Shown in pieces: positions 1 through 58,100 of a stretch of DNA of 64,000 nt. The position numbers and the translations under genes are program-made. The notes under the pieces were generated by a model. The model searched no databases and was not told the origin of the DNA. It saw only the letters and a list, made by a program, of their open reading frames with translations. The stretch covers positions 1 through 64,000 of the forward strand of contig DATJAY010000027.1 of the NCBI GenBank assembly GCA_035515795.1. Direction: 5' to 3'. Origin of the DNA: Candidatus Acidiferrales bacterium (GTDB lineage Bacteria > Bacteroidota > Ignavibacteria > Kryptoniales > JAKASW01). The stretch's first letter is position 1, and every line of letters begins with the position of its first letter.

Positions 1-2277
1 GCGGTTATCGCAATGACATTTCTAACGGTAGGCTCACTTCTCGCGCAGGTGCATATACGAGAGAGCGCAACGATTACGCCGGGGCAGGCGAAGAAAGTAG
101 AGGTGGTAGGAATCAACCATCACCTCAGATATGAATTCAACTGGAGCGGAGAGGACTCAGCGACTCTTGATTATGTGAACTTGGAATGTGACGAGCCAGC
201 GGTAACTATCCGGTCGGCAAACAGCCCGATCATAGTGGATCTGAACTCTGCCGGCTCCGGGGTGTATGTTTTCGAGCCATTGATGCTCATCCAGAGTTCA
301 CCTAACCCGCCGCAATATCGGGTCGGGTTCAGTCTATACTTCGACGATTCGTTGATTGATGAAGGCTCGGATGGCGCATCTTATGGTGATTGGTATGCTG
401 AATCAGGGACATCAGAGGCGGGCTACGTGTACGGACGCTGTTGTGCTGAACCGTGGCCGGTCTTTTATACAGACTTTTCAAACTTTTCACTTTCGCTGTC
501 TCCATTGTTTAATGGAATGCCGCTTTACCATGGAGGGACAGCCTCAATTGCCGTAAATGGCGGCTACGACTGCAGTGGACCCTGGAGTCCATGGTACTCG
601 AGTGATCCGCTTAAATTGACTATCATTTCAGGGAATCAATACGCATCCTTTCACACATTCGACCCAGTAACTGGAAACGACGTAAAGTTGGACTCTGTTG
701 TAAACACAGTGGGAGACAGCCTCTACTGCTTTACTCTCGTTGCGGACAGCGTTCAACCGGATTCAATAGGCGAATGGGTTACGGTACGAGGGGAGAGTGA
801 CGGCAGGGTTAACACAGATTCGATAGAGGTTATGCCGCCGCCGATTGTGGTCACCTTCAATCCGCCGAAGGTTTCGCCCGGCGACACAGCCGATATTATT
901 CTGAAGCAGCGGAATCCGGATGGCACGATAACAGATTTTCTGCCGGATCAGCATTTTGAAGTTCAAATAGACAGCGGAGGGAGTTATGGGACAATTCTGT
1001 CGCAGGGTGATACCTCACAATATTTTGCTTCCAGGCCTCAGCCGCTCAAGTTTATAGCAGTTGACAGCATACAGGCAGACTCCGAGATGATAAGCGTACA
1101 GGTCGGACCGGAAGCTTCTTTACCTACTGCAACAGTGCCGGGCATAAAGGAGTCGGGTAAAGAAAGCAGTGCTTTATCCAAATTCCCTCAGCTGCAATTG
1201 AGACAAAACAAATCTGCTAATATAAAGAGCAAGAGTTCTCCGGTGAAATCATCGTCGTCGATAGCAAATACTGGTAATCGCAAGAAGGTTTCCTTTTATG
1301 AGGGCGACTATGGCATCGGCTGGGTGGAGATTTCCCAGAAATATATTTTGAAAATTGTGCACCATGATCCATGGTCTATATGGCCTGATCTGCCGCCGGT
1401 TCATGTGCTGATTCCAAACTCGGCCGGGACAGCGGACTCAATTGTGACTGAGGTTTATCCACCAGATTACAATTATAAACGCGGATTCATCATATCAGTT
1501 ACCGATGAAAATGGAAAGCCTCCGAGGAAGCCTATGGCGGTGGAAATAAGGCATGACTACCAGCAAGGTACCGGCGGCCATCTGCATGGGTATCATGACG
1601 GAAACAGCCTGACCCCTCCACAGAAGTTGCAAGGAATATTTTACGGTCAGGGGAAGAGTGACTCTTTGCTTGAATTAACAACTGATGCAAATGGGATAGC
1701 TGTCATCGATTCGCTCGTGGCTTCACAAGTCTCGGGTATGTATCTTATAACTGCATATTTAGCATCCGACCCGTCTATCAAGGATACCGTGAATCTGGCC
1801 GTGCAGGTGCCGAGACTTGTTAAATTCGATGAATTATTTCCAGGAGGTGAGAAACGATTTAGCTTTTCTCAATCCGACACCGGAAGAGCAAATCATCCCG
1901 ACAACGACTATTGTACCACTGCCATGGGCGACAGTTTGTTTCTCGGCATTCTTGATTTTTACAGCTGGTCCTCATCTGATTCGGCTGGCAATGGTGTTAT
2001 TCCGATAATCGTGAGTCTAAACGATATGAGTCTGCACTGGGGTGGCGTGTTCGATATTTATGATACGTGGCAGCCTGATCATAAATGGCACCGTATTGGA
2101 CGAAGTGTTGACATCAATAACCCCGGCAGAATTTTTCAGTATCCCGATCCGAACGATTCTAGGCGTGCTATCTCGACTGAGCTGGGAGGTTGGCTAAAAT
2201 ATTGGATGAATCATCACCATGGATATAGGGTTGATGAAGGCAAATCAGTTCATTATGAATTTTACAATGCATATTAA
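1..2277 (+). CDS. Cassette protein A, copy 1: secreted Ig-like protein with metallopeptidase-like C-terminus (5' end outside window)
   Basis: The reading frame is open from base 1, so the start lies just upstream. The paralogue at 54084-56285 begins with four extra residues (MKSA) before the shared AVIA(M/I)TFLTV signal peptide, which ends in LLAQ. The middle part (about residues 275-370 counted from the ATG at base 13) is an Ig-like segment containing SPGDTADIILKQ and RPQPLKFIAVDS, closely matched in the paralogue. The last 130 residues hold a block with NHPDN, LGILDFY, LSLNDMS-like and WGG motifs, followed by HRIGRSVDI and a terminal VHYEF. His693, Asp700 and His747 have the spacing seen in LAS-type (M15/M74-like) zinc peptidases; this is inference from motif shape only. 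It has no T9SS sorting domain. The stop overlaps the start of gene B by one base. Confidence 0.75.
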   Translation, partial: AVIAMTFLTVGSLLAQVHIRESATITPGQAKKVEVVGINHHLRYEFNWSGEDSATLDYVNLECDEPAVTIRSANSPIIVDLNSAGSGVYVFEPLMLIQSSPNPPQYRVGFSLYFDDSLIDEGSDGASYGDWYAESGTSEAGYVYGRCCAEPWPVFYTDFSNFSLSLSPLFNGMPLYHGGTASIAVNGGYDCSGPWSPWYSSDPLKLTIISGNQYASFHTFDPVTGNDVKLDSVVNTVGDSLYCFTLVADSVQPDSIGEWVTVRGESDGRVNTDSIEVMPPPIVVTFNPPKVSPGDTADIILKQRNPDGTITDFLPDQHFEVQIDSGGSYGTILSQGDTSQYFASRPQPLKFIAVDSIQADSEMISVQVGPEASLPTATVPGIKESGKESSALSKFPQLQLRQNKSANIKSKSSPVKSSSSIANTGNRKKVSFYEGDYGIGWVEISQKYILKIVHHDPWSIWPDLPPVHVLIPNSAGTADSIVTEVYPPDYNYKRGFIISVTDENGKPPRKPMAVEIRHDYQQGTGGHLHGYHDGNSLTPPQKLQGIFYGQGKSDSLLELTTDANGIAVIDSLVASQVSGMYLITAYLASDPSIKDTVNLAVQVPRLVKFDELFPGGEKRFSFSQSDTGRANHPDNDYCTTAMGDSLFLGILDFYSWSSSDSAGNGVIPIIVSLNDMSLHWGGVFDIYDTWQPDHKWHRIGRSVDINNPGRIFQYPDPNDSRRAISTELGGWLKYWMNHHHGYRVDEGKSVHYEFYNAY

Positions 2278-3422
2278 TGAGGATGCTCATGCGACATTTA
2301 AATTTAACTTTGTTTCTTTCGATTCTTCTATTAGGGCTGGAGACGCACGCCCAGAATGATATAAGGACATGGATTACTCAACACGGTTTGAGTACAGACT
2401 ACCCTATCCTTTCTAATGTAGTTTTGGTAAACAGTGTATCTTACGCGCCCGAGAGTGAATTTTACTATTATGACTATGTTCTCACAAATAGCAACGGGAA
2501 TAGGGGAAACATCTGGTATTTTGAAATTGACATCAGGCGCCGTCCTGGTTCAATTATTTATGATACCGTGGGACTGAAGTTTGCGAGCAGGTTTGAACAA
2601 GGTGATTTCCAGCGTTACTATCCAGCCGGGACAAAAGCTATCGAGGCTGTTGGATTTCCTTCTTTACCAAGTTTTAAATGGGTTGGAGTCATAGCACATA
2701 ACTCCGTGGCGAGTTTTGCCACAGGTATAACGCAAATGCCACCCGGTACTATAGTGTCTGGTTTCACTATGATGAGCAAAGCTCTGCCGGGGATAAGGGA
2801 GTTCACAGTTCATCCCGATTTCGATGAGGGTAAGTACACGCCGGATATTGATGGAGATACTACCGCAGCTTTGGATTCGATTTACGTTGCCGTTTACAAC
2901 TACATAGATTCGGCGACCAGAAATATGAATTACCATGGCTGGACGATTGGCCCGACAGCTCCACCATTGGATTTCTCCGCATCATCATGGATCGACACCC
3001 TCATCTCCTACAAGCACCAATCCGTCGCACTTGGCTGGCTCAAGGAGGACAAAACTCACAAACAGGACTGTGACGAAATGATGAACGGCAGGGACTGGTA
3101 CAAGAAAGGGGACTTCGAAAAGCTTGGCAAATGGAATCCAACTAACGACTGGGACTTCGACCGCGATTGGAATAACGGAATAGTCGAAGTATTGGATAGA
3201 AGATTGGACAGAGCAAAGACAGAACTTTCGAAGCGAGATTCTGTGGGTGCAAGGAGAGATTTGCAGATATTTGTGATGGAAGTAGAACTGTTGAATAGTC
3301 TGAGCAAGAAGCTGGAAGATAGGAAACAGGCTCCGATCATGACAAGCGAGGCTTATGCGCTGTTGAAATATAATGCGGAGTATTTGATAGAGAAGTTACC
3401 AGAGGGAAGAGGTAAGAATTAG
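2277..3422 (+). CDS. Cassette protein B, copy 1: secreted protein with FIMAH-like helical C-terminus
   Basis: This 381-residue protein starts at an ATG overlapping the stop of gene A (TAATG), which suggests translational coupling; ATGs at 2283 and 2289 are alternatives. A hydrophobic signal peptide ends near THAQ. Residues 30-220 form a beta-rich domain of unknown family. From the GPTAPPLDF motif onward the protein is charged and helical, with DRRLDRAK and LLKYNAEYLIEKLP resembling the FIMAH domain of secreted bacterial proteins (family recognition is tentative). The paralogue at 56287-57357 differs at only four residues over this tail but is strongly diverged before it. There is no T9SS sorting domain and the function is unknown. 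Confidence 0.72.
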   Translation: MRMLMRHLNLTLFLSILLLGLETHAQNDIRTWITQHGLSTDYPILSNVVLVNSVSYAPESEFYYYDYVLTNSNGNRGNIWYFEIDIRRRPGSIIYDTVGLKFASRFEQGDFQRYYPAGTKAIEAVGFPSLPSFKWVGVIAHNSVASFATGITQMPPGTIVSGFTMMSKALPGIREFTVHPDFDEGKYTPDIDGDTTAALDSIYVAVYNYIDSATRNMNYHGWTIGPTAPPLDFSASSWIDTLISYKHQSVALGWLKEDKTHKQDCDEMMNGRDWYKKGDFEKLGKWNPTNDWDFDRDWNNGIVEVLDRRLDRAKTELSKRDSVGARRDLQIFVMEVELLNSLSKKLEDRKQAPIMTSEAYALLKYNAEYLIEKLPEGRGKN

Positions 3423-4140
3423 GAGCCAAAAGAAAGGGAGGAAGATGTTAGATGAAATGCATTTTAATCTTTCTATCGCTGATCGTAGGAGGTGCCTTTG
3501 CCCAACCGGCAAAGCCTGGCAAAACGGATGCCGCCAGCCAGACATGGCAAATCCCATTCGCTTCATCGGACAACACGATCTCACTTAGCATCCAAAACAA
3601 TTCCAGCACTGAGGCGAAGAACGTGTCCGTCGCGTTCAACAAAATTCCTTCTTGGCTGAAATTCAAAGAGAGCATCGCAACTATAAAGAGCATTTCGGCA
3701 AATGCTTCTGGGGATGCTGTGTTTACATTCTCCGTCGATAAGAAAGCTCCTGTAGGGAAGGACACGACTTTGTCCGCGACAATAACTACAACAGATGGTC
3801 AGTCATGGACGAAGGAGATAAAAATTTCCGTTGGTGCACCGAAAGACTACAAGCTTTACAATAATTTTCCCAATCCATTCAACCCGTCGACAAAGATTGC
3901 ATTTGAGCTTCCGAAAGCATCGCATGTAAAGCTCATCATCTATGATGTGGTTGGAAGGGAAGTCGTAGAGGTGGCAGATGCAGATTATCCTGCCGGTTAT
4001 ACCGAGCTGACATGGAACGGAACAAGCAAGAATGGACCTATGGTGTCATCCGGTGTTTATTTCTACCGCATCAGCGCTGACAAGTGGAGCAAGGTGAAGA
4101 AGATGATGATGGTTAAATAATTCAGAGAGATATTAGCCGA
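2949..4140 (+). repeat. Long dispersed direct repeat, copy 1 (3' part of B plus all of C)
   Basis: About 1.2 kb is nearly identical at DNA level to 56884-58100. Similarity runs from the codons for GPTAPPLDF in gene B through gene C to shortly after its stop. Copy 2 carries a 24-bp insertion after the signal peptide of C. Upstream of this boundary the two cassettes are much less similar. Confidence 0.85.
3452..4120 (+). CDS. Cassette protein C, copy 1: small T9SS type A cargo
   Basis: This 222-residue exported protein has a signal peptide ending in GGAFAQ. A roughly 100-residue Ig-like domain (PSWLKFKES, APVGKDTTL) follows, and the C-terminus is a T9SS type A sorting domain: YNNFPNPFNPSTKIAFELP, then IIYDVVGREV, and a final GVYFYRISADKWSKVKK. 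The sorting domain is normally removed when the protein is attached to or released from the outer surface. A purine-rich ribosome site (GGGAGGAAG near 3437) precedes the ATG. The gene lies 29 bp after gene B, so A, B and C probably form one transcript. It is the only cassette member with a T9SS signal. Apart from the sorting domain no function is recognised. Confidence 0.85.
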   Translation: MKCILIFLSLIVGGAFAQPAKPGKTDAASQTWQIPFASSDNTISLSIQNNSSTEAKNVSVAFNKIPSWLKFKESIATIKSISANASGDAVFTFSVDKKAPVGKDTTLSATITTTDGQSWTKEIKISVGAPKDYKLYNNFPNPFNPSTKIAFELPKASHVKLIIYDVVGREVVEVADADYPAGYTELTWNGTSKNGPMVSSGVYFYRISADKWSKVKKMMMVK

Positions 4141-4363
4141 AAGAGATCCCGCGTTATGGAAAAACTCTTATCCTTTTGGGGGCGATGGTGCCGAACAACA
4201 TTCACATGCTACAACTGAACCGCCCAGCTGAACCACAGAAAGCAAAGTACTCGGATTCATCTTCGCATTGCTGAACTCGTTCGCTATTGCAGCGGCTGTT
4301 TTGGGAATACAGACCGCCACTAGTTCGGCTTCACCGGTCCATTAAGACATAAATCGGCGACTT

Positions 4364-4423
4364 ATCTTTTGAAAAGCGTTCTTTCTTTTCTCTTGATAGA
4401 AAAGAAAGAACCAAAGAAAAGAT
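4364..4423. repeat. Long inverted repeat (two nested stems)
   Basis: A perfect 14-bp inverted repeat, GTTCTTTCTTTTCT at 4378-4391 and its complement at 4398-4411, is separated by a 6-nt loop. Outside it, ATCTTTT at 4364-4370 pairs with AAAAGAT at 4417-4423. It lies about 250 bp after gene C. It could act as a bidirectional terminator or be a mobile palindromic repeat; no U-run clearly favours termination. Confidence 0.65.
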
Positions 4424-4993
4424 CAAGACTTATGAAAAAAATGACGGGAAATTTCTTTGCGCCGCTAAAACAAATAAAATGTCATGAATAGTATCCTCTT
4501 TTTTACCTTTCCAGATCGTAATCCTCTGCTCGAATTGTCTCCTTTGCGAAAATGAAGTCCCGTCTCCCTCCACGAATCTATCAAGACTCCTCTAAAGGCG
4601 ATTTTGGGAATCTCCTCTGTTATATATTAACCGCCGTGTATTAAAATCGCCTCACCTGTCAAGAGGCGGGACGATCCGCCTGTGGCGGACTTTTGGTTCG
4701 CTTAACCGTTGTCGTGCAGGAAGATTGGAATCTCCTCATCTCCAGACATGTATTTATACGATTCCGAATCTTTTGGGCGAGCAAAAGAAAGTAGACAGAC
4801 AACAAGCCTGAACCATATCCGAAGAAAACTATGTTCTTTCTCTTGTCTTGCCATCCCGATTTTCATCGGGACAGGCTCCCGAAAGAACCCAATGAGCGCC
4901 CTTGGCGCCATCCCGCAAGGCGGTGACTTAACGCCATTTTTTCTCAATGCCGGTTACGGAAAGCAGGAATTGAGGACAACCCGGCATCGAGAG

Positions 4994-5033
4994 GAGAAAT
5001 CTTCTCTGGCCATCGTGAATGCCGTTTGGGTGG
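4994..5033 (+). repeat. Degenerate copy of GAGAAATCTT interspersed repeat
   Basis: This 40-bp stretch matches 6955-6994 at about 34 of 40 positions, beginning GAGAAATCTTCT and containing ATCGTGAAT. It appears to be a truncated copy of the palindromic element at 6897-7061. Confidence 0.55.
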
Positions 5034-5224
5034 TACGATGCACGGCATCGGTTGGAAACCGACGCCTTGAGAAGGCGCAAATCCGCCTCTGGCGGATTTC
5101 GAGATTTTTGAAGCCGTCTGTTTTAACAGATCGCGATAAAAACGTTTTGTCACGGCATCGATTAGAAGCCTCTCAGGGGATGCCTTTGTGTCAATGACAG
5201 GAGGAATGGACGGAAAAGTTGTTC

Positions 5225-6322
5225 CTATTTCTTAGACCAGAAGTCGTTCCATCGTTCGGTTTCCTGCTGAAGATCTACGCTTCTCATTATCAGCGGAAAA
5301 TAATCACCGAATGCCATGGTCGATCCTTCATACTTTTCAAGGGAATTGTAAATTGTCGGGCAGAGTATGAAGCCGTATTTGTACTCGGTCTGCAGCGACG
5401 AATCGACTGTGGAACTGTCCAGGTCGTAGAGCTTCTTCTCGAGTCTTATGTCCATGGCTTCCGCAAAACATTCCGCGACGAGTGTATTCCAGTTCCCGTG
5501 CTTCAGGCCGACTTTTGATTTGACTGTATCGTAGAGTCCTTCAATCCGTGCCATGTCCGACGAGTCGCTTCGTGCGAGAGGGAGGGCAATCCGGGTAAGA
5601 AGGTGGTAATAAAAAATCGATTTGTCGGGTTTATCTTCCTGCGGTCCGACGATCACATATATGTCACCGTTCACCCAGGCCGTCAGCGAAGCGTAATAGG
5701 GAAGTAAAGGCATGAATTGGAAATGGATATGCCTGCTGCTGTGCGAAAAGTAATTACTGTCGAGGCGGCAATATGCTTCGACATCCTGCATTGCCTTTTC
5801 CGCGAACCGCTTATACCTGTCGTTCTTCGCCTGTATCAGCGGACGATACTCCGCCCAGAGATCCGCGATGCCGGCTTTCCGGTAAAACTCGGCGAGGAGC
5901 GCGGGGAGACCGGAGTCCGACTCGACGGTTTCACTTATGTCACCGGTCATCTTCGGGTTAAAGCTCCAATGGAAATCCGGCGGCCCGTCCGTCAGAAGCG
6001 CAGCTTCATAAGCTTCTAATATTCTTCCATGGCTTTCGTCAAAGTTCGTTATCTTCCGCTGAAGGGTTGAATCGATTCTGCCGGCAAGGTCGTCGCGGAG
6101 CTCGGTCCTTATCGGATTCATTCCTGCGTGGCGCCATTCACCACCGCCTCCCGCTGCATTCATCATCGCATAAGCGGTAAAGACTCTGGCATCTGCAGAA
6201 AAATCAAAAAGAGAGTCGCTTCCTTGTCCAAAAATTTTTCCCGCCGGCGCTAAGATGATAAGAGGCAGGAAGATCATGGCCGGGAACCATATCGACCTTA
6301 TGCTTTTGTCGTGTAAACTCAT
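5225..6322 (-). CDS. Conserved secreted protein of unknown function (possibly DUF4932-like)
   Basis: This 365-residue protein has an N-terminal hydrophobic segment (residues 10-32, ending FGQG) consistent with export. The start is well supported by AGGAGG about 6 nt upstream on the minus strand. The body is soluble and mixed alpha/beta, with motifs such as YYHLLTRIALPL and GFILCPTIYNSLEKYE. The late part (ECFAEAMDIR, then GF...L..YE) reminds me of DUF4932 proteins, which have a peptidase-like HExxH. No HExxH is present here, so if the relationship is real this member is probably inactive. The gene is 59 bp downstream of the lipoprotein gene on the same strand and may be co-transcribed. The family assignment is weak. 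Confidence 0.6.
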   Translation of the reverse strand: MSLHDKSIRSIWFPAMIFLPLIILAPAGKIFGQGSDSLFDFSADARVFTAYAMMNAAGGGGEWRHAGMNPIRTELRDDLAGRIDSTLQRKITNFDESHGRILEAYEAALLTDGPPDFHWSFNPKMTGDISETVESDSGLPALLAEFYRKAGIADLWAEYRPLIQAKNDRYKRFAEKAMQDVEAYCRLDSNYFSHSSRHIHFQFMPLLPYYASLTAWVNGDIYVIVGPQEDKPDKSIFYYHLLTRIALPLARSDSSDMARIEGLYDTVKSKVGLKHGNWNTLVAECFAEAMDIRLEKKLYDLDSSTVDSSLQTEYKYGFILCPTIYNSLEKYEGSTMAFGDYFPLIMRSVDLQQETERWNDFWSKK

Positions 6323-26579: not shown

Positions 26580-28718
26580 ATGAAAAGAGTCATTTACCTG
26601 TTCACGATAATGACACTTATGGTTCCCATTTCCTCAGCTCAATGGAACTGGACCTGGCGTAATCCTACGCCCACGGGGTCCTGGATTAACAACGTCTGGC
26701 GATTCTCTGCTAACGAACTCATGGCGGTCACCGACGAAGCGTTAATGCACACGACTAACGGCGGTGCCACATGGACTCTGTCTCCCGGAGGGGGTTACGA
26801 AATCTTCTTCGCTGATGCTAATCACGGATGGATCTGCTCTGGAGATAGCGTCGGATACACCACAGATCATGGTACAACATGGGTGTGGGTCAACACAGGC
26901 TGGGTGACCTCTCCCGATTACCTTACCGCGATGTGCTTCGTGAGCACAACTACAGGCTGGGTTTGCGGTACGTCCGGGATCATTCTGAAAACCACCGACG
27001 GCGGAATTACATGGCAGTCGGAAAACAGCACGACCGGCGAGAGTTTGTGGGGTATATGTTTTACCAGCGCGTTGGTAGGATGCGCCGTGGGCACTAACGG
27101 GGTCATTCTCAAGACATCTACTGGCGGGTCAGGTTGGAGCTCAAAAGTCTCGCATACGACAGAAAATCTGTTCTACGTTTGCACCGCCGGTTCGTCGGTT
27201 TTCGCCTTCGGAAATAACGGAACAGCCCTCAAGAGCACCGACAACGGTGGAACCTGGTCATCCTCTAACAGCGGCCTCTCAGGATGGATAAATTCTGCTT
27301 GTGCATTGGACGCGAATAACATCTGGGCGGCTGGGACAGGTAATGCCGTTTATAAGACGACCGACGGCGGGGCAACATGGAACAGCAAGAATCCATATAT
27401 TGGCGGGAACATTGACAATGGCCTAACGATAACCGGAGACTTCTGCTGCGCCAGTTTTTCGTCAGCAACCTCAGGAATTGTGTGCGGCGGGAATGGAGTC
27501 ATGTACAAGACGACTGACGACGGTGCCACCTGGACATCGCTGTCTAATTCGTTCACAACCAAAGATACAAAGTGCATTACTTTTTCAGATGCGCAGCACG
27601 GATTTCTCTGCGTGAGTCTTCCCTACGGTGATAATACTTCCAACGCCCTCTACCGCACGACGGACGGCGGAACTTCCTGGACGGCGGTGTCAAGCAGCAA
27701 TTCCATCACCTTCATTCAGATGTTCCCGGATGGATCGGGAATACGATATGCAGGTAGCACCACAGGTTGGCAGACTACAACCGATAATGGTTCCTCTTGG
27801 ACAACTAAAGGCGGGAGCAATCCGGCGCTCATATTGGTAGGCTTTGAATTCCTAAGCGCCACGACGGGATTCGCATTCGATGAGGGAACTAACCTATACA
27901 AGACAACGAATTCGGGAGTCAACTGGACCACATTAACCCACCCCTATGTGGACATAGTTGGTGGTTACTCTCTCCCGAATGCAAACACAATCTGGATTGC
28001 GGAATGGTCCGACGGCGTCAACGTAATTCTCAGCACCGATGGAGGCACTACCTGGACGAATCCCGGAGGCGGTTCAATTATCGGCAACCGAACGGCAGTG
28101 TTCGCATTCGATACTAAGAAGGCGTGGGTCGGAAATTCGCTCGGCGATCTCTTTAAAACCACTGACGGCGGCGCTTCATTTACTGAAGTGTCCGGGGTTT
28201 TTAATGGTGTTCAAGTCAATGCGATTGAATTTCTTAGTTCCGACACCGGCATCGTAATCACGGCAAACGGTGTTTTTAGTATGACATTTGACGGCGGCGC
28301 ATCATGGCACCCGAATGTCATCGGAAGCTCGGATTGGACTGCGATCGGTGTCGCTTCACACAAGAGCATATTCCTTGCCGGCAAAGGCGGACAACTTTTG
28401 CAGGGAATCAACGGACCGGTCGTCTCAGTGAAAGATCTTGCCGGAGAAAAACCGAGAAACTTCTCGCTTGCGCAGAATTATCCGAACCCGTTCAACCCGA
28501 CAACGAATATTTCGTTCACGCTCCCCGTGAGATCATTCGTATCGTTGAAAGTGTTTGACATCTTGGGCAGGGAAGTCGCGACCTTGTTGCATGGCGAGCT
28601 CGCTGCAGGAAGCCATGTGGAACAGTGGAATGCAGCTGGCATGCCAAGCGGGGTCTACTTCTATCGATTGCAAGCAGGATCGTTTACGGATACGAAGAAG
28701 GTTATCCTGCTCAAGTGA
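26580..28718 (+). CDS. Secreted YCF48/BNR-repeat beta-propeller protein with T9SS type A sorting domain
   Basis: This 712-residue protein has a signal peptide ending SSAQ. About a dozen copies of a TTDGG-A-TW motif (for example TTNGGATWTL, KTTDGGITWQS, STDGGTTWT) follow, the signature of photosystem II stability factor (YCF48)-like and BNR propellers. The C-terminal 85 residues begin LAQNYPNPFNPTTNISFTLP and continue FDILGREVATL and GVYFYRLQAG, a T9SS type A sorting domain. It is therefore an outer-surface or released protein, perhaps an adhesin or carbohydrate-binding structure; no catalytic residues are known for this arrangement. GAGGAGG precedes the ATG. Confidence 0.88.
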   Translation: MKRVIYLFTIMTLMVPISSAQWNWTWRNPTPTGSWINNVWRFSANELMAVTDEALMHTTNGGATWTLSPGGGYEIFFADANHGWICSGDSVGYTTDHGTTWVWVNTGWVTSPDYLTAMCFVSTTTGWVCGTSGIILKTTDGGITWQSENSTTGESLWGICFTSALVGCAVGTNGVILKTSTGGSGWSSKVSHTTENLFYVCTAGSSVFAFGNNGTALKSTDNGGTWSSSNSGLSGWINSACALDANNIWAAGTGNAVYKTTDGGATWNSKNPYIGGNIDNGLTITGDFCCASFSSATSGIVCGGNGVMYKTTDDGATWTSLSNSFTTKDTKCITFSDAQHGFLCVSLPYGDNTSNALYRTTDGGTSWTAVSSSNSITFIQMFPDGSGIRYAGSTTGWQTTTDNGSSWTTKGGSNPALILVGFEFLSATTGFAFDEGTNLYKTTNSGVNWTTLTHPYVDIVGGYSLPNANTIWIAEWSDGVNVILSTDGGTTWTNPGGGSIIGNRTAVFAFDTKKAWVGNSLGDLFKTTDGGASFTEVSGVFNGVQVNAIEFLSSDTGIVITANGVFSMTFDGGASWHPNVIGSSDWTAIGVASHKSIFLAGKGGQLLQGINGPVVSVKDLAGEKPRNFSLAQNYPNPFNPTTNISFTLPVRSFVSLKVFDILGREVATLLHGELAAGSHVEQWNAAGMPSGVYFYRLQAGSFTDTKKVILLK

Positions 28719-53908: not shown

Positions 53909-54083
53909 GTTTTCCGGTTTTCTTCTTGATATTTACACCATGGCTTGTTAAAATTTAGGCATAGATATTGCCAGAGGGCAAATGAAGTCAGGGAGCCCGA
54001 AGCACGAAGATTCACCTTACGATTGTTTCAACTTGAAGCTGAGTAGTTTTGAAACATTACTTGGCATCAAAGGAGTCTTTGAG

Positions 54084-56285
54084 ATGAAGAGTGCAGCGGT
54101 TATTGCGATTACATTTCTAACGGTAAGTTCACTTCTTGCGCAGGTGCATATAAGAGAGAGCGCAACGATTATACCGGGGCAGGCGAAGAGGGTGCAGATA
54201 TCGGAAAACAAACACAAGATATGCTTTACATTTGTCTGGAACACAGATTGTGAAGGCTGCACGCAGACTGAGATTGGCCGTATACATGTCTACGGTCCAT
54301 GCGGTCTTGATACCACATGTGAAGACACAGATCGCCGTCCGATTATGGTCATAAATCCTGCAAGGGCAGGCGACTACTGGTTTAGCCTCTCGCTATTCAA
54401 GACTACAACAGATTCTTCAATTGGCGAGTGCTCCATCTATCAAGATGACTCACTTATCTATGAAGAGACCAGGTGGTCATGGGCGACAAGGAATGTTGTT
54501 CCCAATGCGTGGAATTATCTCCACCAGGGTTATAATCCGGAAGGCGACACCCTCAAATATTACTCAACTCCTTACTATTCAACATTTCAGCTTCAATTGG
54601 TGCCCACCGGCTTTTCTTACGGTCAGGAGTCAGGCTTCTTCTACGGGGATGAATCCATAGTAAGATTGCAGGGTTCGGATAGCTGCACGAATACTGCGTG
54701 GTCTTTCGATGATCCTGATCCTATAACATTTACTATATTATCCGGCCATCGATACGCTTCGTTCCATACTTTTGGACCCGATGGTGAAGACGTAAAGCTT
54801 GACTCGACCTTTACCACGACCGCGATGGAGATTTGGATGGATCAGTTTTTTCTTGCTGCAGACAGTGTTCGACCGGATTCAGCTGGCGAGTGGGTGGTAG
54901 TCGAAGCAGAGAGCAAAGGGGTGAAAAGCATAGATTCGATACGAATCTTTCCATCACCGGTAGTCGTCGGTCTTGTTCCGTCCGAGATTTCACCGGGTGA
55001 TACTGCGATGATAGTCGTAAAGAATCAGAACCCCGACGGTACGATAACGGATTTCACGCCGGATCAATTCTTTGAAGTCGGGATAGACAGCGGGAACGCA
55101 TATGGAACGATTCTGTCGCAGGGTGATACGGCTCAATACTTCGCGCGAAGACCTCAGCCGTTGCAGTTCATAGCAGTCGACAGCATAAGTGCAGACTCAG
55201 AGATAGTCGGGATTAGAGTGGGCTGGGAGCAGGAGGTACCTTGCTCAACGGTGCCGGGTGTAAAAGAGAATTCCGGGCAAAACAGGAAAGCGGGAGGCAC
55301 AACGGTTGATGCAAATCTAAAGAACACGGCGATCAACCCTCCGGCAAGGAAGGTGAATATATTACCAGTTCACCGCAAGTCGGTCTCCGATGCGCCTAAC
55401 TTTTCATCGGGTTACTATGGTATCGGCTGGGTTGAGATAGAAAAGACTAAGATCACAATCAATATCCCAACACCAAAGCAGGAATGGCCAAATTTGCCAC
55501 CACATTCTGGAGGAAATCCCAATGCAAGGGACGAGAAGAAATTCACGGTCACAGTGACACGTGGAGGCAAACCCTTGCCCAATTATGGTGTAACTACAAC
55601 AGCATCCATGATACTGCCATCCGGGGGACACGCTCATCTAAATCAGCCACCGCAGGCTGAAATGGGAGAACTCGAGGACTATGTGCACCATGTTGATGGG
55701 AACGGAACGATAACGACCTTGACAGACGGTGATGGAAATATCTTTATAGATTTCACAGCGCCGGAATTTAGCGGAAATGTATTGATGACTGCTTCGTCAA
55801 CTACCGAAAATGTAAGTGCACACGATACCATTTCAGTGATGGTCCCGGGTTTTGTTAATTTCAGAGATTTGATATTCCTGCCAAATAGAGCCCGACCTTA
55901 CGCATTCCAACAAACGACTCAAACCGCCATTGACAATCATCCTGACAACAACTGGTGTACACCGGAAGCGGGCGACCAATTCTTCCTTGGAATACTTGAT
56001 TTCTATTTCTTGTCCGGTTCAGCAGATGGCGGCGGAACGTACTTGAGCATTAACGACATGAGCCTGCCGTGGGGCGGGTTGTTCGATGCACTATATTCGA
56101 ATTGGCAACCTCCTCATAGTGCTCACAGGATAGGCCTGAGTATAGACATAAACCCGAATGATGCAAATGATATCCCGTTGACCTTAGATCAGATCCGCCA
56201 ACTTAATTTTTGGATGGCAAAGCACCAATGTTATCGGAACAGCGAAAGACAAATACACTATGGATATTTAAATGGGAGAAACTAA
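54084..56285 (+). CDS. Cassette protein A, copy 2: secreted Ig-like protein with metallopeptidase-like C-terminus
   Basis: This 733-residue protein is taken from the ATG at 54084, which has AAAGGAG about 9 nt upstream; an open frame continues 34 codons further. The signal peptide ends SLLAQ. It is paralogous to gene A copy 1 but diverged in the N-terminal half. The Ig-like segment (SPGDTAMIVVKNQNPDGTI) and the C-terminal block are conserved. His681, Asp688 (HRIGLSIDI) and His725 (IHYGY) keep the LAS-like metal-ligand pattern, as do DNHPDNNWC, LGILDFY and WQPPH. No T9SS tag. Peptidase activity is inferred, not shown. Confidence 0.75.
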   Translation: MKSAAVIAITFLTVSSLLAQVHIRESATIIPGQAKRVQISENKHKICFTFVWNTDCEGCTQTEIGRIHVYGPCGLDTTCEDTDRRPIMVINPARAGDYWFSLSLFKTTTDSSIGECSIYQDDSLIYEETRWSWATRNVVPNAWNYLHQGYNPEGDTLKYYSTPYYSTFQLQLVPTGFSYGQESGFFYGDESIVRLQGSDSCTNTAWSFDDPDPITFTILSGHRYASFHTFGPDGEDVKLDSTFTTTAMEIWMDQFFLAADSVRPDSAGEWVVVEAESKGVKSIDSIRIFPSPVVVGLVPSEISPGDTAMIVVKNQNPDGTITDFTPDQFFEVGIDSGNAYGTILSQGDTAQYFARRPQPLQFIAVDSISADSEIVGIRVGWEQEVPCSTVPGVKENSGQNRKAGGTTVDANLKNTAINPPARKVNILPVHRKSVSDAPNFSSGYYGIGWVEIEKTKITINIPTPKQEWPNLPPHSGGNPNARDEKKFTVTVTRGGKPLPNYGVTTTASMILPSGGHAHLNQPPQAEMGELEDYVHHVDGNGTITTLTDGDGNIFIDFTAPEFSGNVLMTASSTTENVSAHDTISVMVPGFVNFRDLIFLPNRARPYAFQQTTQTAIDNHPDNNWCTPEAGDQFFLGILDFYFLSGSADGGGTYLSINDMSLPWGGLFDALYSNWQPPHSAHRIGLSIDINPNDANDIPLTLDQIRQLNFWMAKHQCYRNSERQIHYGYLNGRN

Positions 56286-56286
56286 G

Positions 56287-57357
56287 ATGAATAAAAAGAA
56301 TTTAGCTATTTTGGTGTTGCTTGCGTGCGGATCGCTATGCTCACAAGGGCAAGAATTACCCCTTCTAAAAGAAGTCCAAGTAAAGTGTGCCGTTTCATTT
56401 CAGCAACAGAATGGAATGTACTACTTTACCTACGATGTACGGAACGATCTCAGCAGCGTTGGAAACATTATCATGTTTAACATTGACATCTCTACGAGCC
56501 AAAACTCGATTCAGTATGATACCAGCGGTTTGCGCTACAGGGACGATGGGTTCACTGAGAAGATCTTTCAAAATGACTACCCAGTGATTAAGGGTAAGAT
56601 CGTTCCTGTTGGATTTCCTTCGATGCCCCTTCATTGGTTCGCGGGAGTTGGAACAGACCTCGCGGCTGGCTTTGGCGGAGATTCTCGCAATTGGATCAAG
56701 CCAGGAAGTGCACTGGGGGGATTTGTCATCATGAGTAAAGGGTTGCCAGGAATACGATCATTCGTGGCAATCCCGGATTATGACCCCACAAAATATTTCC
56801 CCGATCCTGATGAGTACCCGGAATCAGACACCGTGAACATTGATTCCGTAAGGGAGTCACTAAATTATTATGGCAAAACACTCGGCCCCACCGCTCCGCC
56901 ATTAGACTTCTCTGCGTCATCATGGATAGACACCCTCATTTCCTACAAGCACCAATCCGTTACGCTCGGCTGGCTCAAGGAGGACAAAACTCACAAACAG
57001 GATTGCGACGAAATAATGAACGGCAGGGACTGGTATAAGAAAGGTGACTTCGAAAAGTTTGGCAAATGGAATCCGACTAATGACTGGGACTTCGACCGCG
57101 ATTGGAATAATGGAATAGTCGAAGTATTGGATAGAAGATTGGACAGGGCAAAGACAGAACTTTCCAAGCGGGATTCTGTGGGTGCAAGGAGAGATTTGCA
57201 GATATTTGTGATGGAAGTAGAACTGTTGAATAATCTGAGCAAGAAGCTGGAGGATAGAAAACAGGCTCCGATCATGACAAGCGAAGCTTATGCGCTGCTG
57301 AAATATAATGCGGAGTATTTGATAGAGAAGTTACCAGAGGGAAGAGGTAAGAATTAG
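56287..57357 (+). CDS. Cassette protein B, copy 2: secreted protein with FIMAH-like C-terminus
   Basis: About 356 residues from the ATG at 56287, one base after the gene A stop, with GGGAGA upstream; the frame is open five codons earlier. A signal peptide, NLAILVLLACGSLCSQG, is followed by a diverged beta-domain, then the tail from GPTAPPLDF that is almost identical to copy 1 (four differences in about 156 residues). The near-identity extends to synonymous sites, unlike the front half, pointing to gene conversion or recent duplication of the tail. Function unknown. Confidence 0.75.
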   Translation: MNKKNLAILVLLACGSLCSQGQELPLLKEVQVKCAVSFQQQNGMYYFTYDVRNDLSSVGNIIMFNIDISTSQNSIQYDTSGLRYRDDGFTEKIFQNDYPVIKGKIVPVGFPSMPLHWFAGVGTDLAAGFGGDSRNWIKPGSALGGFVIMSKGLPGIRSFVAIPDYDPTKYFPDPDEYPESDTVNIDSVRESLNYYGKTLGPTAPPLDFSASSWIDTLISYKHQSVTLGWLKEDKTHKQDCDEIMNGRDWYKKGDFEKFGKWNPTNDWDFDRDWNNGIVEVLDRRLDRAKTELSKRDSVGARRDLQIFVMEVELLNNLSKKLEDRKQAPIMTSEAYALLKYNAEYLIEKLPEGRGKN

Positions 57358-58100
57358 GAGCCAAAAGAAAGGGAGGAAGAAGTTAGATGAAATGCATTTT
57401 AATCTTTCTATCGCTGATCGTAGGAGGTGCCTTTGCCCAACCGGCAAAGGTTGGCAAAACGGATGCCGTGGGACAGATCCCTCAACAAAGTTCGGGACAG
57501 GTCTGGCAAGTCCCATTCGCCTCATCGGACAACACAATCTCTCTGAGTGTTCAAAACAATTCCGGCACTGAGACGAAGAATGTGTCCGTCGCGTTCAACA
57601 AAATTCCATCATGGCTGAAGTTTAAAGAGAACGCTGCAACCATAAAGAGCATTTCGGCAAATGCTTCTGGGGATGCCGGGTTTACATTCTCTGTTGATAA
57701 GAAAGCTCCTGTTGGAAAGGACACGACCTTGACGGCAACGATAAGTACAACAAATGGTCAGTCATGGACTAAGGAAATAAAGATCTCTGTCGGAGCGCCG
57801 AAAGATTACAAGCTTTACAATAACTTTTCCAATCCATTCAACCCGTCGACAAAAATTGCATTTGAGCTTCCGAAAGCATCGCATGTAGAACTCATCATCT
57901 ATGACGTCGTCGGGAGAGAAGTCACGCAAGCTGCAGACGCAGATTATCCTGCCGGTTATACCGAGCTGACATGGAACGGAACAAACAAAAATGGAACACT
58001 TGTTTCATCCGGAGTTTACTTTTATCGGATAAGCGCTGACAAGTGGAGCAAGGTGAAGAAGATGATGATGGTTAAATAATTCAAAGAGATGTTCAGTAAT
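56884..58100 (+). repeat. Long dispersed direct repeat, copy 2 (3' part of B plus all of C)
   Basis: Partner of 2949-4140. The match begins within the GPTAPPLDF codons of gene B and continues through gene C to about 20 bp past its stop, with one 24-bp insertion. Confidence 0.85.
57387..58079 (+). CDS. Cassette protein C, copy 2: small T9SS type A cargo
   Basis: This 230-residue protein is nearly identical to copy 1 with an eight-residue insertion after the signal peptide (GQIPQQSSGQ region). The T9SS domain is intact except that the first motif reads NFSNPFNPSTK instead of NFPNPFNPSTK, a change next to the conserved core. The C-terminus GVYFYRISADKWSKVKK is unchanged. It is 29 bp after gene B, preceded by GGGAGGAAG. 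The last gene of the second cassette. Confidence 0.85.
   Translation: MKCILIFLSLIVGGAFAQPAKVGKTDAVGQIPQQSSGQVWQVPFASSDNTISLSVQNNSGTETKNVSVAFNKIPSWLKFKENAATIKSISANASGDAGFTFSVDKKAPVGKDTTLTATISTTNGQSWTKEIKISVGAPKDYKLYNNFSNPFNPSTKIAFELPKASHVELIIYDVVGREVTQAADADYPAGYTELTWNGTNKNGTLVSSGVYFYRISADKWSKVKKMMMVK

Follow-up and report, generated by a model that had tools for sequence, protein, structure and literature searches.

What kind of domain closes the protein encoded at the very start of contig DATJAY010000027.1 (assembly GCA_035515795.1, Candidatus Acidiferrales bacterium), and what could it be used for? The stretch analysed here, referred to as the window, comprises 64,000 nucleotides (positions 1 to 64,000, forward strand) and encodes two copies of this protein, named A, each followed downstream by the genes for the proteins B and then C (Table 1). 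Because the first letter of the window is also that of the contig, copy 1 of A lacks its first residues; the two copies share 39% identity over 788 columns. An earlier note, made from the letters of the sequence, had proposed that the C-terminus of A is an undescribed LAS-type metallopeptidase domain, which would then be delivered outside the cell. We found that this domain has the LAS fold and is exchanged between cassettes together with one half of the neighbouring gene B, and we consider it likely that it is a zinc peptidase from a sister family of M74 (murein endopeptidases), serving as exchangeable wall-hydrolase tip on an exported chassis with B as its matched partner.

A sister family of M74

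Both copies of A carry the C-terminal motifs listed in the earlier note, namely HRIGRSVDI/HRIGLSIDI and SVHYEF/QIHYGY as well as WGG, W-QP and NHPDN, all of which are present as claimed. The two domains of about 150 amino acids are homologous (tblastn E 2e-29, 46% identity in the aligned pair), and a third LAS copy with a classical HFH ending is located in the same genome (G000:C20, L003). An additional upstream His, overlooked in the earlier note, extends the motif to H-x-x-H-x6-D (HKWHRIGRSVD and HSAHRIGLSID), which is the layout of MepA. Using searches among relatives, in the phylum and in a species collection we compiled 26 distinct domains; they belong to Bacteroidota/Ignavibacteria or to bins carrying the labels Elusimicrobia, Nitrospirae, Bryobacterales, Lindowbacteria, Spirochaetes and Woesearchaeota. 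With residues counted from window position 1810, N71, D72, S74, L75, G78, G79, W87, H94, G97 and D101 are invariant in all of them, H91 and H148 are found in 24 and E143 in 21, and the conserved motif pattern is far beyond chance. The His and Asp residues, on whose conservation in wider homologues the earlier note had made its proposal depend, are thus retained (H94 and D101 in 26/26, the C-terminal His in 24/26). Within the phylum the domain occurs in 13 of the 396 genomes searched. Collections of phages, plasmids and viral contigs were searched as well and contained no relatives of it, leaving an origin from a phage endolysin unsupported.

For the fold we built an AlphaFold2 model of the copy 1 domain from the 26-row alignment (predicted local distance difference test, pLDDT, 79.6; predicted template modelling score, pTM, 0.79) and compared it with 350,542 PDB chains using Foldseek. 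The comparison with MepA, VanX and hedgehog folds that the earlier note had proposed came out in its favour, as the matches 1 to 8 are all LAS structures (best E 1.8e-3, probability 1.00): two entries of Sonic hedgehog, two LdcB/VanY-like proteins, three chains of MepA, and VanX. Ply500 follows further down, and the first match outside the LAS group has an E-value of 1.5. In a viral library several of the top matches are named M15 peptidases.

The profile comparison with M74, also proposed there, points in the same direction. Aligned by hhalign to six M74 proteins, the domain reached a probability of 96.7% (E 4.5e-10, score 69.3), compared to a maximum score of 21.0 in 60 column shuffles and 15.7 with the reversed profile, and with MepA from E. 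coli alone the probability was 92%. A profile search of the PDB sequences returned MepA first (E 0.0076) with VanY/LdcB among the weaker matches, and the same search with a single sequence gave chance matches only. PF03411 (M74) matches 14 of the 26 members at E-values up to 0.1 (best 6e-6), and one protein from a genus-mate exceeds its curated cut-off of 25 bits with 28.6 bits. Of the window copies, copy 1 is not matched by this model and copy 2 obtains 12.3 bits; the E-values of copy 2, all below cut-off, are 0.031 for M15_4, 0.11 for VanY and 0.12 for M74. Because the top fold matches are exclusively LAS, the profile matches lead to M74/MepA and the Pfam scores stay below cut-off, the domain very probably represents a divergent sister family of M74 within the LAS group. 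The family is undescribed in that it has no name in Pfam or NCBIfam; the fold itself is not new. The LAS group thereby gains an unnamed family that is adjacent to MepA in sequence and has a Hedgehog protein as best structural match. The origin of Hedgehog from bacterial secreted enzymes is debated.

Putative active site

The earlier note had read His-x6-Asp...His as the ligand layout of M15, M74 and hedgehog-like peptidases, and in the profile comparison H91-x-x-H94-x6-D101 indeed aligns on H110/H113/D120 of MepA. Zinc would then be held by H94, D101 and H148, with E143 probably serving as the base that activates the water on the zinc, and H91 probably as oxyanion helper. In the LAS group the third ligand is a His in HxH or ExxH. 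The window copies possess E-x4-H or E-x3-H without HxH, and E-x4-H is the commonest Glu-His spacing in members with and without HxH alike. The register of H148 is ambiguous, as anchoring on the conserved Glu places it on the second His of HxH, which is the ligand, and MAFFT places it on the first; the alignment with a hidden Markov model of the HxH members ends ahead of this region. We favour the second His and thus a ligand, the register being inferred from the Glu anchor. The active phage LAS peptidase 2vo9, an endolysin, has a Pro at the position of the first His (PMC4102407), which suggests that the first His may be dispensable.

Compared to M74/MepA, the block DM-x2-P-x-GG ... H-x-x-H-x-x-G-x-x-x-D-I is collinear, the last His stands within HxH in 15 of the 26 relatives, and one relative even shows QH-x2-H-x-H-x-R (QHRAHMHVRL vs QHPDHYHLRF in MepA). 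In contrast to M74, the domain is about half as long, is fused to immunoglobulin (Ig)-like domains and scores below the Pfam cut-off, and the window copies end in a C-terminal His without HxH. With the Hedgehog N-domain and its bacterial counterparts it shares the fold, H-x6-D ... His and a Glu just ahead of the last His, but no sequence similarity was found. These proteins are defined by HxH together with calcium-binding residues identical to Sonic hedgehog (PMC6027127); HxH is missing from the window copies, and a calcium site, looked for by eye only, was not recognisable in the LAS domain.

The Ig-like domain just ahead of the LAS tip carries GGH-x-H (window 1570-1590 and the equivalent region of the relatives, SGGHDH in many of them), possibly a latency element or a metal site.

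Exchange of tips together with half of gene B

We compared the A-B-C cassettes of this genome as DNA. Cassettes 2 and 4 (the latter at G000:C35, L060) are 96.6% identical over 475 nucleotides of the A chassis, up to the motif YGIG. Past this point the tip of A and the N-terminus of B are unrelated between the two, and identity returns within B at DTLISYKH with 90% over 1150 nucleotides to the end of C. Cassettes 1 and 3 show the same borders: they are 93.8% identical over 146 nucleotides up to YGIG, and in B identity (87%) sets in again at the position seen in cassettes 2 and 4. The variable block hence consists of the A tip and the N-terminal half of B, which are swapped together. In our model a constant exported chassis would bear a LAS, SLT-like or other tip, the block running on into the N-terminus of B.

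In the tip of cassette 4 a Lys and a Glu are invariant (PPQLLKxxIxxE), and together with SYG-x2-Q they recall lytic transglycosylases; judging from these motifs the tip is probably lytic-transglycosylase-like. Two further chassis copies carry other tips (L087 and L088, Table 1), and for that of L088 a comparison with lytic transglycosylases gave no significant match. The chassis is present in 3 of 13 genus genomes. A conserved N-terminus with an exchangeable C-terminal domain, as in polymorphic toxins, is thus found in cassettes 2 and 4, with L087 and L088 adding further tips.

The partner protein B

B is encoded immediately downstream of A in 12 of the 13 A-bearing genomes, and loci labelled Nitrospirae and Lindowbacteria show the same order. 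Judged by eye, its start resembles a signal peptide. The model of B (pLDDT 83.3) comprises a beta-sandwich and a helical bundle similar to FIMAH, the FIMAH match lying below cut-off. Foldseek searches with this model gave diffuse beta-sandwich matches only (adaptin mu, adhesins) and no known inhibitor fold.

Parts of B vary with the type of tip in front of it. An extra N-terminal domain of about 210 amino acids is present in 8/8 B proteins that follow SLT-like tips and in 0/18 that follow LAS tips (6.4e-7 as a simple draw, not corrected for kinship). Among all B with a typed partner, an insert of about 20 residues is present with non-HxH tips and absent with HxH tips. Within the LAS cassettes the distances between LAS domains track those between B N-termini (Mantel r 0.79, p 0.0002), and there is no co-variation with the B C-terminus (Mantel r 0.16). 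From these sequence comparisons B is probably a matched exported partner of the tip, most simply an inhibitor shielding the periplasm of the producer. Since a tip and the N-terminal half of B are exchanged jointly, the role of B is directly testable.

Some B genes have no A in front (L072:2401-3819, L069:9338-11760, L061, L065 and L067). A few stand beside a cassette of another tip type, as in L072, and in this they resemble orphan immunity genes.

Export

A signal peptide is clearly visible by eye at the start of A copy 2. In the domain scan of the window proteins neither A nor B has a sorting tail of the type IX secretion system (T9SS); C alone carries such a tail, and the translocon SprA is present in the genome. 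As A has none, its delivery outside the cell, suggested in the earlier note, is only a possibility; A may leave the periplasm, perhaps with the help of C.

Possible function of the cassettes

According to the model we prefer, the last 150 or so residues of A would cleave a peptide bond, likely in peptidoglycan, and B would protect the producer as an inhibitor. Several points weigh against it. With 0.42-0.51 the TM-scores from Foldseek are moderate, none of the Pfam and NCBIfam models reached its cut-off on the two window A copies, and these copies carry S or Q in place of the first His of the MepA HxH. In addition the SLT-like assignment has little support (E 0.004 with Pfam SLT; hhalign score 27.6 vs 21.1 for the best shuffle), so the wall as target leans mainly on the kinship with M74, and the co-variation of A and B could stem from co-inheritance of adjacent DNA. 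The replaced His would also suit a LAS fold that has lost peptidase activity in the window copies and binds the wall or a protein instead, as known from Drosophila Hedgehog, which has the LAS fold and binds without the zinc motif (PMC6027127, PMC4102407). We regard this as unlikely, since H94, D101 and the C-terminal His are retained in 24-26 of the 26 relatives and the activity of the 2vo9 endolysin shows that a His is not strictly required at the replaced position. It appears similarly improbable that the tip cleaves proteins, for example on surfaces, rather than peptidoglycan: Sonic hedgehog is the best fold match and the HENIH motif of a sister cassette could belong to a protease, but the closest family in sequence is a murein endopeptidase and other tips resemble lytic transglycosylases.

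How the peptidase would be used is a separate question, and here the cassettes invite comparison with polymorphic toxins. In Bacteroidetes, TANFOR toxins combine tips that can be exchanged with an immunity gene downstream and lie next to T9SS substrates (PMC7073777), and a cystatin-like chassis bearing a VanY-like (LAS) tip has been described (PMC12419801). The cassettes share with these systems the constant exported N-terminus, the swappable tip, the gene directly downstream and the T9SS substrates nearby. Unlike them, A contains no domain found by Pfam or NCBIfam, B is a hybrid joining a variable N-terminus to a constant C-terminus, and toxicity and immunity are proposed roles here. We propose only tentatively that the cassettes form a new T9SS-linked polymorphic toxin system, in which wall-hydrolase tips (LAS/M74-like, SLT-like and others) and a two-part immunity factor B, whose N-terminal domain is specific to the tip and whose C-terminal domain is constant, are swapped as one block between fixed junctions. 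A secreted enzyme acting on the own wall or used for feeding on dead cells is likewise a serious though unproven candidate; the mosaic would then result from gene conversion between paralogues and B would be a surface or localisation partner instead of an inhibitor. The B family members without A (L061, L065, L067) and a B C-terminus that is constant whatever the tip type would fit such an enzyme, and adjacency alone could account for the co-inheritance. The abrupt common junctions at YGIG and DTLISYKH are atypical of housekeeping autolysins, and so are unrelated tip sequences, several in one genome, on a chassis restricted to 3 of 13 genus-mates. As toxins, the cassettes would point to wall-targeting competition in the little-studied Ignavibacteria-type bacteria.

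Positions of the features and additional observations

Table 1: Features of the A-B-C cassettes in the window and, in the last three rows, at further loci of the genome.
Feature	Position	Strand	Remarks
Protein A, copy 1	1-2277	+	Remnant of a signal peptide, Ig-like chassis, GGHLH-bearing Ig-like domain, LAS domain at the C-terminus; 5' end cut by contig start
YGIG junction motif, copy 1	1309-1320	+	Left border of variable block; DNA identity to cassette 3 ends at 1331
LAS (M74/MepA-like) metallopeptidase domain, copy 1	1816-2274	+	Model, Foldseek, hhalign
H-x-x-H-x6-D, copy 1	2080-2112	+	H91 2080-2082; H94 2089-2091 and D101 2110-2112, predicted zinc ligands
E143 and H148, copy 1	2236-2253	+	E143 (putative catalytic base) 2236-2238; H148 (putative third zinc ligand) 2251-2253, in model strand 147-151
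Protein B, copy 1	2277-3422	+	Exported partner; variable beta-sandwich N-terminus, constant helical FIMAH-like C-terminus from DTLISYKH (nucleotide 2994)
Protein C, copy 1	3452-4120	+	Secreted, type IX sorting tail; FlgD_ig 4e-9, Por_Secre_tail 1.8e-6
Protein A, copy 2, complete	53982-56285	+	Open reading frame (ORF); likelier start 54084, giving MKSAAVIAITFLTVSSLLAQ; signal peptide by eye
YGIG junction motif, copy 2	55416-55427	+	Identity to cassette 4 (96.6%) stops at 55428
LAS domain, copy 2	55851-56282	+	46% identical to copy 1
Protein B, copy 2	56272-57357	+	Constant C-terminus from 56929; 64% identical to B copy 1 over residues 41-381
Protein C, copy 2	57387-58079	+	Type IX sorting tail; 87% identical to C copy 1; FlgD_ig 8e-10
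Fourth cassette, SLT-like tip instead of LAS	L060 (G000:C35:42500-50500) 3887-5737	-	Near-identical chassis
Chassis copy with HENIH (HExxH-type) tip	L087 (G000:C5:1500-10500) 2669-4957		A short B-like gene and a C gene lie behind it
Chassis copy with GYGLMQLD tip	L088 (G000:C20:120000-129500) 2946-5000		Lytic-transglycosylase-reminiscent; followed by an unrelated TIG-domain gene in place of B

Two A genes are interrupted by a stop or a frame change, one being split into two ORFs (L069:1291-3534) and the other terminating early (L031:1734-2724). One LAS relative (L034, JACOVN010000133.1) lies on a 12-kb contig binned as Woesearchaeota and is either an archaeal gene or part of a misbinned contig. 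Within the window, positions 26580-28718 encode a secreted BNR-type repeat protein with an apparent T9SS sorting tail at its end (by eye).
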